Shown piece after piece: positions 8,871 to 59,317 of a DNA stretch of 64,000 nucleotides. Where the stretch lies: the NCBI RefSeq assembly GCF_004210375.1, contig NC_134829.1:26862034-26926033 (forward strand). The letters are read 5' to 3'. Numbering within the stretch: position 1 is the first letter of the stretch; each line of letters begins with the position of its first letter. This stretch comes from Tachypleus tridentatus (Eukaryota > Arthropoda > Merostomata > Xiphosura > Limulidae). A program made the position numbers and the translations under genes. The notes under the pieces are model-generated. The model worked only from the letters and a program-made list of their open reading frames with translations. It was not told the origin of the DNA and ran no database searches.

Positions 8871-9044
8871 ATCTACAAACGGCCCGACGAAGTTTCTATC
8901 AAATATTTTCGACAGCTTGCCAAAACTAAACATTTTAGAATGTAAAAAGTTCAAACGTTTCTTTAACTTACAATCAACTATCTAAATTAATATCATATAT
9001 ACGAACACAATATTCGTTTAAATCTGGTGATTCTATTAACATTT

Positions 9045-9199
9045 AAGAACACAGTATAATGATCCTACCATATTTAAAAACGTAGTATAATAATCTTACC
9101 ATATTTAAGAACGTAGTATAATGATCCTACTATGTTTAAGAACGTAATGTAATGATCCTACCATATTTAAAAACATAGTATAATAATCTTATTAATATT
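9045..9199. repeat. 31-bp tandem repeat, five units
   Basis: Units start at 9045, 9076, 9107, 9138 and 9169, an exact 31-bp period. Each is a variant of AAGAACGTAGTATAATGATC then CTACCATATTT. Divergence between neighbours is a few bases. Confidence 0.85.
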
Positions 9200-55540: not shown

Positions 55541-56245
55541 AAATTCAGAGACAAATCATGATGTATTTATAAAATGTTCTATTAAAAATATTTTGGGAAA
55601 AATGGTCAATCTATATAGATTAAAGGTAAATTAGGTTCAACCTTGTTAAAATTACAGGAAAAATTGGGATGTTATGGAAGAAAAACATTTCGTTAAATCA
55701 TTTTCCATCACTAGCTAGTTGTACTACGTACACAAAGTTCAAATATAGCTCGACATTTTCTTCATTGTTTATTAAATATCTTGAAAATAGCACAATATTT
55801 CCAAAAATGTTCATTCTTTGGGGTGATACTAGAGAAATTGTTGATTTATTTGTAAAGTTCTTACATAACTAAGATACTGTAGTAGCGTCTTTCTTCTTGC
55901 TCTCCTTGTCTTGTTTGTAAATTAAAAATAAAAAGATTTTAACTTGTACATTTTACAAATGTATGTAAAAAAAAAAAAAAAACTATCCGTGTAATTGTTG
56001 TCTGATTCACTTCAAGCATAGTTGTTCCTAATTTTAAACGTGAGAGAATAGATTTAAAGGCAAATAAAATTTTTACTTGTTCCTGAGCAGAAAATGTTAT
56101 TTTCCAATTGCTTGTGCTTAAAGTAAATGAAAAAGAACTATTTTTCTCTTTAAACTTTGCTTTTTTGACGTGGGTAATGAAATTTTCAAATTCACCCATT
56201 TTTCCAGAACATTCCAGGTAGATTCAGTGCCGAGTAACTGATAGA

Positions 56246-56333
56246 GAATTTTTTCTAACTTGCAAGAACTTTCTAGAACGTTGTAGAACTTACGAGAATT
56301 TTCAAGAACCTTTCAGAATTTTCTAGAACTTCC
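56246..56333 (+). promoter_or_regulatory. Extended heat-shock-element array
   Basis: Every fifth base from 56246 to 56331 starts a triplet that alternates GAA and TTC (or a one-base variant): GAA at 56246, 56266, 56276, 56286, 56296, 56306, 56316, 56326; TTC or near-TTC between them, perfect at 56271, 56301 and 56321. That is about 18 consecutive 5-bp HSF subsites. AGAACTTTCTAGAACG (56265-56280) is a perfect nGAAnnTTCnnGAAn. HSF trimers bind such arrays (established knowledge). Confidence 0.8.
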
Positions 56334-56344
56334 CAAAGTAATAT

Positions 56345-56383
56345 ATATATATATACAAGGGATCAACACTCACCACTTCAGTT
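56345..56383 (+). promoter_or_regulatory. Core promoter: TATA box and initiator
   Basis: TATATATATATACAAGG follows the HSE array directly. About 30 bp downstream is TTCAGTTTAG (TCAGTT at 56378-56383), an arthropod-type initiator. The HSE, TATA and Inr spacing is that of hsp promoters. The (AT)n run could instead be a simple repeat, but the +30 initiator argues for function at least in the ancestor. Confidence 0.6.
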
Positions 56384-58420
56384 TAGTTCTAGTTGCCGAA
56401 GTAAACACACAGACCTATCTGATTTTATCAGAAATTGCATCAAGAAACTGCAGGCATTTTCCAGACGCATTCTGCTATGTATGTGGCCAATTCATTAAGA
56501 CAAAAGCGAAAAAGTACTCTGTGGCAGCATCTGCTAAAACGTGTGAAGCCTACAAGGCATATTTCGGCATGCCTGTCGGTGATCAAGACAAACCCTGGGC
56601 ACCTCATTTTACCTTCGAGCACTGCAAAGAAACTCTAGGAGGTAAGACGGACAACTTTTGCTTGCTTGAATAGAAAGATTTTATATACAAATTTTAGACC
56701 TTTTTAAAATGTATCTTTTAATTTCCAATAGTACAGAAAAAATCATATAACATATTTTGCATGAACCTCTTACACATCAATTGTGGATGAAATAAATTTA
56801 TTCTTCATAATAATAATTTTATTTTGCTCTTTTTGCAAGATGGTACAGAGGGAAAAAAAAAGAGTCGTGAAGTTCGCTATTCCAAGAATTTGGTGTGCAC
56901 CTACTGACCACTCAAGCAGTTGCTACTTCTGCATGGTGAACCCTTTGAAACGTCGGGCTCACAAGAATGCATTTGCTATCATGTATCCGGACCTTCCATC
57001 ATCCATCGCCCCAATTCCACACTGTCCTAAGCTCCCTATATCCACTCCTCCAGGAAGAAAGCAGCCATCCTCAAAAGAGAGCACCCAATCAGAAGATGAC
57101 GTAGACGTTGAAGATCCAGGTTGCAATTTCAGAGGTGCAGCTGGTGAAACAAACCCAATCTGCCCCAACAAAAAAAGGGACCTCAATGACTTGATCAGAG
57201 ATCTTGGTCTAACAAAGTCGAATGCCGAGCTTTTGACATCTAGGCTCAAAGAATGAGATTTGTTAGATGAAAGTGTGCAAGTCGCAAGTCAGAAGAAGCG
57301 TCACCGACCTTTTCCAAGTTTCTTCACTCGTAAAGATGGGGTTTGCTTCTGCCACAATGTATCCGGTCTGTGCGAGGCAATTGGAATTGCCTGTAATTCG
57401 AAAGAGTGGCGACTCTTAATTGATAGCTCATCTAGAAGCTTCAAACTGTGCTGCTCCATAACGAGAATAAATATCCGTCTCTTCCCCTGGCTCATTCGGT
57501 GCACCTCAAAGAGGAATACAACTACAAGCCTTAAAGTATGATGAATATGGCTGGGAGGTTATCGGAGACTTCAAAATTGTGGCATTCCTAATGGATCTCC
57601 AAGAAGGCTTTACCAAGTTTTCCTGTTATCTTTGCCTTTGGGACAACAGGGACATCACAACGCACTACAACAGGAAGCACTGGCCACAACGGACTGAGTT
57701 TTCTCTGGGGAGGCACAATGTCAAGTGTGAGCCACTAATGGACCTCCAGAAGGTGTTGTTCCCACCACTTCACATAAAACTGGGTCTTATGAAAGAATTT
57801 GTTACAGCTCTTGATAAGGAGTCTGCAGCCTTTCAAGTACCTTCGAGACTTTTTCCCTAAGCTGTCTGAGGCAAAGGTCAAAGCTGGTGTCTTCGTTGAA
57901 CCACAAATAAAGAAGATCCCGGAGTGCACAGAATTCCCCAAGAAGCTCAGTTGGAATGAAAAAAAAAAAGCTTGGGGCAGCTTTGTCGCAATAGTTTGGG
58001 GCTTCTTGTGCAATAACAAAGCCGAAAATTATGTGCAACTGGTTGAGGCTTTGGTGAAGTACTACGACAAAATGAGCTGCAGGATGTCCCTGAAAGTCCA
58101 TATTCTTGACGCTCATCTTGATAAAATCAAGGAGAACATGGAGGGCTGATGCGTAAAAGTGATTTGCATTGCAGTCGCAAATCTCGAAAAACTACTCGCT
58201 TCTAAACATTTTTGTATAACTTTAGTATAAGTACATGTAAATCTTGATTCATATGTTGTTTTACTCAGACCTTATGTAAATGAAAATATGCAAATTTGAC
58301 CGTTTTTACATAGAAAATAGGTTAATTTCTAAATTTCATTTTCCAGGTCACAAAAGCAAAGTTTGAAGGGAATAATGACCATTTTCTGTAATTTTACAAC
58401 ATAAGCAATTAAGAAATAAT
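56380..58420 (+). pseudogene. Decayed copy of a multi-copy arthropod gene family of unknown function
   Basis: Starts at 56434, where the expected ATG reads ATT (ATT GCA TCA AGA). Reads ASRNCRHFPDAFCYVCGQFI, with C-x2-C, and GDQDKPWAPHFTFEHC to 56641. Intron GTAAGA...GCAAG (56642-56839). Then FAIPRIWCAPTDHSSSCYFC, an acidic/Pro-rich linker, DLNDLIRDLGLTKSNAELL, TGA at 57254-57256 in place of a likely Trp, EWRLLIDSSSRSFK, YDEYGWEVIGDFKIVAFLMD, CYLCLWDNRDITTHYNRKHW, LHIKLGLMKEFVTALDKESA and RMSLKVHILDAHLDKIKENM. An internal deletion then skips to SDLHCSRKSRKTTRF and TAA near 58204. Frameshifts lie in the A-run near 56860 and near 57450 and 57835. I recall similar proteins in many arthropod genomes; the function is unknown to me. 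Several long frames on both strands here are its pieces or shadows. Confidence 0.75.
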
Positions 58421-59317
58421 CATATTATCCAGGAACAAAATTTGTGTTACATTGTGTAATCAATAACGCACACCACCAATTCTTGAGCCAAGCTTTACCA
58501 AAGACAAGTTAAATTGACCGTCAGTGGCGAGAATATTTCTTGATAGGATTCAATAGGATTCAGTAATGACATGGAATTGGTTGTTAATGTTCGAATAATA
58601 CGTAGCATAAGTGTAGTAACAACGTAACTTCGTAACATTGTGTCAGAACATAGTCAGAATGTAATTTTACAATATACAGTACTATTGATTAGCAATAACA
58701 TAAGAATATTAGATTGCATACGAAGAGCAAAAGAAAAGTGAAGATGGTTGGATGTAACAAAAAGTGGACAATGACTTTTTTAACAATGGCTGTACTAAAG
58801 TCGTAAGTAAGGAACTTTATTAAGATTATAAAATTGTTCTATGAGAGAAAAAGAATTAATTAGGTCCAGCAAATGTTCATTTCATTTTTATTGTTACAGA
58901 TAATTAGAATAATTTTTCAAACAATTAAAAATTTATAAATATTAATAAGCAGGTACCCAGATTAACTAGTTTGCTAAAGCTGTTGAATTACAAAAAATAT
59001 TTATATAACTTAATAACATAACTCAAAATTGTTTGTTTTATTTTTAAGTAGTATAAAATAAACACGATCTACCACAGGATTTTACCTCTTTCAGTGGAGT
59101 CACCCAGGATTTAATAATGTCTCCACATATAAATAATAAAAAAATTAAAATTTCATTGCTCATAAATATATATAACATGTGCTAGTGACAGTACGGTAAG
59201 TGTTTGTGTACCACTTACATATTGGTTTTGTTTGTTTTAGTATAACTTCTATTTGTGTACCTGTGTGCTTTACCTTGTGATTTTGGTAAATTTCAAAATT
59301 TCTTGTATATATATTCT
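58421..59317. other. Intergenic, nothing recognised
   Basis: AT-rich. A weak SINE-body echo lies near 58470-58530 (CACACCACCAATTCTTGAGC, AGTTAAATTGACCGTCAG). Confidence 0.5.

Follow-up and report, generated by a model that had tools for sequence, protein, structure and literature searches.

A run of 18 alternating heat-shock-element (HSE) units lies ahead of a broken transposase gene in the 64,000-nucleotide stretch of Tachypleus tridentatus DNA that we analyzed (the window). Judged by its anatomy, this array is probably the HSF-dependent enhancer and promoter of a Chapaev3-like transposase, which it would render heat-inducible. The same arrangement is found in an unrelated piggyBac transposon, and heat may therefore wake both elements.

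The HSE array and its host element

The array consists of GAAnn and TTCnn units that alternate at 5-bp spacing in exact register (Table 1); 11 of the 18 are perfect, the other seven carry one mismatch each, and 47 of 54 core bases match. The runner-up site in the window matched at 30/54 core bases, and the maxima among 60 simulated 64-kb windows (first-order Markov model) were 32/54 core bases and six perfect units. A sequence-only reading of this DNA had described about 18 consecutive units in register, which these figures bear out; its term "phase-perfect" is right for the register, but not for the seven mismatched units of the window copy. Measured against a threshold of at least three alternating nGAAn units near a core promoter, the array offers 18 (11 perfect), followed downstream by a TATA run and by TCAGTT, which we take to be an initiator. 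In the 18 aligned copies with both motifs measurable, the last TATATA starts 27-33 bp upstream of the initiator A, and in 13 of these the distance is 29 bp, in agreement with the earlier description of a TATA box followed by TCAGTT at about 30 bp. Further upstream, a distal HSE, TTCnnGAAnnTTC, is present in the corresponding part of 24/32 aligned copies. TRF assigned the array a 10-bp period (7.5 copies, 73% matches); elsewhere in the window, at 9041-9188, it reported tandem copies of a 31-bp unit (4.8 copies, 83% matches).

Table 1. Coordinates of the array, its host element, and related features (window positions unless a locus or contig is named)
Feature	Position	Strand	Remarks
Chapaev3-like TIR transposon, window copy	56070..58456	+	homology to other copies begins at ~56070
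Left inverted repeat	56077..56202	+	77% identical to the reverse complement of 58314-58438
Distal 3-unit perfect HSE, TTCnnGAAnnTTC	56202..56214	+	upstream of the main array, in a different phase
Main HSE array, 18 units, 11 perfect	56246..56335	+	unit scan and simulation
TATA run (TA run)	56342..56355	+	TATATA intact in 28/32 aligned copies
TCAGTT initiator-like motif	56378..56383	+	expected start A 56380; exact TCAGTT in 23/32 aligned copies
Transposase exon 1, start codon lost (ATTG)	56434..56641	+	limits by eye
Transposase exon 2, with stops and frameshifts	56840..58200	+	approximate limits by eye
Right inverted repeat	58314..58438	-	no HSE run in it
Family B (piggyBac) copies	L083:1522-3753; L084; L077-L082		L084 on the reverse strand; HSE array, TATA, and ATG before the transposase
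hsp70 gene cluster	G000:C8:132821672-133793067		L104 and L105 within the set

The main array lies immediately internal to the left inverted repeat of a transposon whose left tip is eroded in the window copy and not recognizable before 56070, and whose right target duplication would be the TAA at 58457-58459. Where the window copy reads ATTG, 19/32 copies have GAGATGGCATC. Within exon 2, the C(2)C, LH, and H(4)H motifs lie at 57624, 57768, and 58099, respectively, and the broken frames contain CYLC, LH, and HILDAH in that order; the short H(4)H pattern also fits HYNRKH, and this motif test is weak taken alone. Better copies have CAC/GTG-type ends (CACTATGTAAC...GTTACATAGTG), and the TIRs are present in the window copy. 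Target duplications could be resolved in 10 of the 12 copies with both ends located: seven are identical 3-bp duplications, comprising six TWA (TTA or TAA) and one TTG, with two of the seven sharing flanks, and three are not identical. The adjacent outer base is A for left sides or T for right sides in 17/20 cases. When five frames of the window copy were scanned against Pfam, no family passed the cut-off and a single match fell below it (E 0.12); the identification therefore rests on the ends, the target duplications, and the motifs. By these three features, together with the lost start, the stops, and the frameshifts, we class the gene as a dead, Chapaev3-like transposase, where the earlier reading had a gene of unknown function; the window copy as a whole is a relic, dead but with its promoter retained. 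That reading's notion of a self-multiplying family fits a transposon with TIRs and target duplications.

Repeated flanks at five copies (L010, L014, L019, L022, and L024) had raised the suspicion of long target duplications, which we rejected, as these copies appear to have inserted into tandem repeats and to have duplicated 3 bp. The location of these five inside tandem repeats may reflect a preference for TWA-rich minisatellites or chance. A search for relatives of the element in viral contigs found none.

Recurrence and variation of the array among copies

DNA searches covered the genome from which the window comes (2.17 Gb, 205 contigs). A 301-base array-bearing query yielded 40 scored matches, including the window itself, among 2817 candidates, and the other 39 were 85-90% identical across nearly the whole query; a coding-region query and a right-end query gave 3700 and 2699 candidates, respectively, all three totals being first-look candidates and not copy counts. 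Because the first 40 matches came from a query that contained the array, copies were also sampled by the coding and right-end parts, and the 20 loci chosen by the array-bearing query (L009-L028) were excluded from the question of array presence. The coding-selected sample comprised the 5' side of the first 20 among the 39 non-self matches listed, and the right-end sample comprised 10 among 39 non-self places at 94-95% identity, from a listing that also contained one further short match.

Among the coding-selected copies, 17/20 (a count that includes the near-duplicate pairs L053/L056 and L057/L058) hold at least seven perfect units, and the other three hold four, three, and none. The collection of copies and alignment of their 5' flanks, which had been proposed as a check, thus place the array at the same position in those 17, as the sequence-only reading had anticipated. 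Some deletions truncate or remove the array in the copies examined, and internal deletions bring it nearer to the coding region; a nearer fetch for 18/20 coding-selected copies recovered arrays. The right-end-selected copies differ: 8/10 show no run, and the other two have arrays with 4 and 11 perfect units. All eight array-less copies are missing the stretch from ~56174 to ~58139, and seven of them are ~455-470 bp long by their matches. Hence, many copies carry no HSF sites to new loci, and the suggestion that the family does so would apply to the coding copies, in which the array recurs, but not to most of these right-end-selected ones. Moreover, none of 15 right ends examined has an HSE run. 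Since coding copies carry the array, whereas right ends and multiplied short copies do not, it is an old, one-sided part of the coding element. Separately, two clusters of near-identical array-bearing copies, L093-L096 (G000:C2:55651540-55736520) and L089-L091 (C2:8667450-8741200), are perhaps segmental duplications.

The same counts bear on a rival role for the array, namely as a subterminal repeat that binds transposase and is required in cis for transposition and not for transcription. In En/Spm elements, transposase-binding repeats occupy the subterminal regions of both ends, and the CMC group contains CACTA elements, which likewise have repeats near their ends; our array, likewise, is repeated and lies near an element end. 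It is, however, found at one end only, with all 15 right ends lacking the run, and is absent from 8/10 right-end copies, seven of which are of the short ~455-470-bp kind; the motif and layout also recur in the unrelated piggyBac family. One-sidedness and loss from multiplied copies argue against a transposase-binding repeat, a role that we regard as highly improbable, and the eight array-less copies and the 15 right ends together indicate that the element can probably move without the array in cis.

Array lengths, in 32 non-duplicate copies (omitting the near-duplicates L022, L027, L025, L058, and L056, as well as L063, whose array is mostly deleted), range from 80 to 120 bp and are a multiple of 10 in 28 copies and one base short of this in four. 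The omitted L056 has an array of 160 bp, and the longest array fetched, in L086, has 26 units, 19 of them perfect; some copies contain 40- and 80-bp duplications. Length changes of 10 bp are consistent with slippage or with unequal exchange among units, and an origin by slippage, as had been suggested, is plausible. An array built from the majority bases has 14/18 perfect units (9/9 GAA and 5/9 TTC). Cores diverged from the majority at 0.052 and spacers at 0.075 (one-sided p 0.064 in the 32 copies, a weak contrast), compared with 0.050 and 0.041 for the two flanks, so that cores are no more conserved than flanks. Stratified by base, the core-spacer p was 0.034 (A/T, 0.028 vs 0.058; G/C, 0.105 vs 0.127), and a frame shifted by 4 gave 0.049 vs 0.079, a contrast equal to or larger than that of the true frame. 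These figures make no convincing case for selection on the cores; decayed copies would show little of it.

The period, the length steps, the duplications, and the unremarkable conservation of the cores are also what one would find if the array were a 10-bp minisatellite born inside the element, whose match to HSEs is incidental and without function. We consider this quite unlikely: its unit is an exact alternating HSE at promoter distance from a TATA box, and a second family places its array identically. Minisatellite nature and an HSF promoter are, moreover, compatible with each other.

Long HSE runs elsewhere in the genome

A genome-wide scan for six consecutive perfect units found 218 places, vs 0 for the reversed pattern, and a scan for seven units found 97 in forward and 86 in reverse orientation (control, 0). 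A motif of a second family, B, GAATATTCTnGAAGCTTCnAGAATATTC, accompanies 113/218 of the six-unit places. Among the 50 of these 218 places listed, 23 have the family B motif, and the six of these that were fetched are all family B; of the 27 without it, 23 fall in 19 fetched regions and four outside. Eighteen of the 19 regions (near-duplicates L089-L091 and L093-L096 included) belong to the Chapaev3-like family, 17 by both sides of the array and one by the left side only, and one region belongs to neither family. The classified six-unit runs thus lie nearly all within two unrelated DNA transposons. The six-unit perfect HSE that matches neither transposon, at L087:292-319, is set in a stretch with more GAA/TTC words. 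As a separate observation, TTAGG arrays gave 117 forward and 132 reverse matches in the genome (reversed control, 0), a result that points to an arthropod without proving it.

Family B is a piggyBac transposon: L083:2543-3679 encodes a piggyBac transposase (DDE_Tnp_1_7, PF13843, E 1.8e-59), and TTAA is present at both ends of L084 and at the left end of L083, the right end of which is truncated. Under strict scanning, the L083 run has 11 units, eight of them perfect, and by eye it extends to ~16 units with one 1-bp slip; downstream of it lie CCTATATATATAGG and then an ATG. This family is young, as the six fetched copies are 96-98% identical to one another over several hundred bases. Very short matches aside, the two families are alike only at the array, and an independent origin of the array in each is likelier than an exchange.

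We also compared the array with host heat-shock promoters. In the hsp70 gene cluster, all four promoters fetched have a proximal five-unit run (four perfect) just upstream of ATATAAATA, as well as a weaker run of six units, three of them perfect. Three other hsp70-type upstream stretches, whose promoters may lie beyond an intron, gave no run in two cases and three perfect units of four in the third. Several copies in the cluster match hsp70 in two frames that overlap (positions 1-187 and 184-598), and L105 is one base shorter than L104 soon after the ATG; these are either true frameshifts or assembly errors. The genome encodes an HSF DNA-binding domain as one complete match without stops (C1); the four partial matches (G000:C5:40845897, C13:19094986, C13:208316812, and C11:6636561), three of them with stops, are possible pseudogenes.

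Proposed function and relation to known systems

Several observations favor an HSF promoter: (i) a unit number far above simulation, with TATA and TCAGTT at promoter spacing; (ii) an unrelated piggyBac family that orders HSE array, TATA, and ATG alike; (iii) hsp70 promoters of the same genome that set a five-unit HSE just before TATA, in a genome with an HSF domain; and (iv) the restriction of the array to one side, its recurrence in 17/20 coding copies, its 10-bp lengths, and the 218 vs 0 runs. Weighing against it are cores no better kept than flanks, the weak core-spacer contrast, the multiplication of 8/10 right-end-selected copies without the array, and the cut arrays of 3/20 coding copies. 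Under the HSF-promoter reading, heat or other proteotoxic stress would lead HSF trimers to fill the array cooperatively, the bound HSF would promote transcription, which would start at TATA/TCAGTT, 45 bp downstream of the array, and transposase output would thereby become part of the host heat-shock response, presumably to the benefit of the element. The array gains and loses mostly whole 10-bp steps with its register kept, and longer arrays would hold more HSF.

HSF might instead use the array in unstressed germ cells or during development, and not in heat shock. HSF acts in animal gametogenesis, and expression in the germline is the most profitable to a transposon. In C. elegans, according to one report, HSF-1 is bound at Helitrons near a gene, mostly in the germline (PMC12062965). 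Our evidence does not separate such use from heat induction, and both may hold; as a replacement for heat induction we judge it rather unlikely, if less so than the other alternatives considered above.

For the HSF-promoter reading, the layout of the promoters is enough to predict heat activation of the transposases in two unrelated families, of which the piggyBac one is young. That stress can activate transposition has long been proposed, but few animal cases are well understood, and a convergence of selfish DNA on HSF becomes directly testable here. Array-bearing copies mark loci that may have gained new HSF sites, and they form a natural series of HSE lengths, from 80 to 160 bp, for studies of HSF cooperativity. 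We tentatively raise a wider proposal, as a possibility with somewhat more against it than for it: two unrelated cut-and-paste superfamilies would have independently evolved long pre-transposase HSE arrays well beyond those of hsp70, would hold most of the strongest HSF sites, and would fire together under heat, forming a spreading regulon that competes with and rewires that of the host.

Helitrons are rolling-circle elements without TIRs, and DIRS-1 is a tyrosine-recombinase retrotransposon. In Caenorhabditis, Helitrons are reported to have many HSEs before the transposase gene (14 in one promoter region), to be heat-induced, and to hold a large share of the genome's HSEs (PMC6927752). The present element resembles them as a DNA transposon with many HSEs ahead of its transposase gene, but differs in that two TIR superfamilies are involved, the array is a single contiguous one in register, and the heat response is a prediction. 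ONSEN is reported to have four nGAAn motifs that arose by duplication of a proto-site, and related Brassicaceae COPIA elements have clusters of ~3-6 such motifs (PMC5059998); putative HSF sites likewise occupy the element promoter here, but these are LTR retrotransposons, whereas ours is a DNA transposon with 18 units, and up to 26 in L086. DIRS-1 of Dictyostelium, as cited in PMC2685390, has a heat-shock promoter in its terminal repeats; it shares with our element a repetitive nature and a heat-shock-type promoter at an end, but our array lies inside the left TIR only. Smaller numbers appear in reports on Cryptococcus LTR elements, with one or two putative HSEs (PMC12810828), and on mPing, to which six HSEs were added by design (PMC11254759).

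Chapaev3 elements are characterized, in the available part of their description, by CAC/GTG ends, a TWA duplication between A and T, and the C(2)C, LH, and H(4)H motifs, with the members Garfield, Merrow, and Conan being ~2.3 kb long and silkworm Garfield having 2,289 bp and two exons (PMC4079192). Our element has in common with these three its ends, TWA duplication, ~2.3-kb length, and three motifs; it departs from them in its long HSE array, that part of the description mentioning no heat-shock promoter. Among the open-access papers listed by our literature searches, none describes, by title or abstract opening, HSE arrays in Chapaev3 or piggyBac elements. Heat-responsive transposons are already known from DIRS-1, ONSEN, and Helitrons; what is unusual here is the same layout in two superfamilies, with arrays that exceed the hsp70 sites examined several-fold in length.
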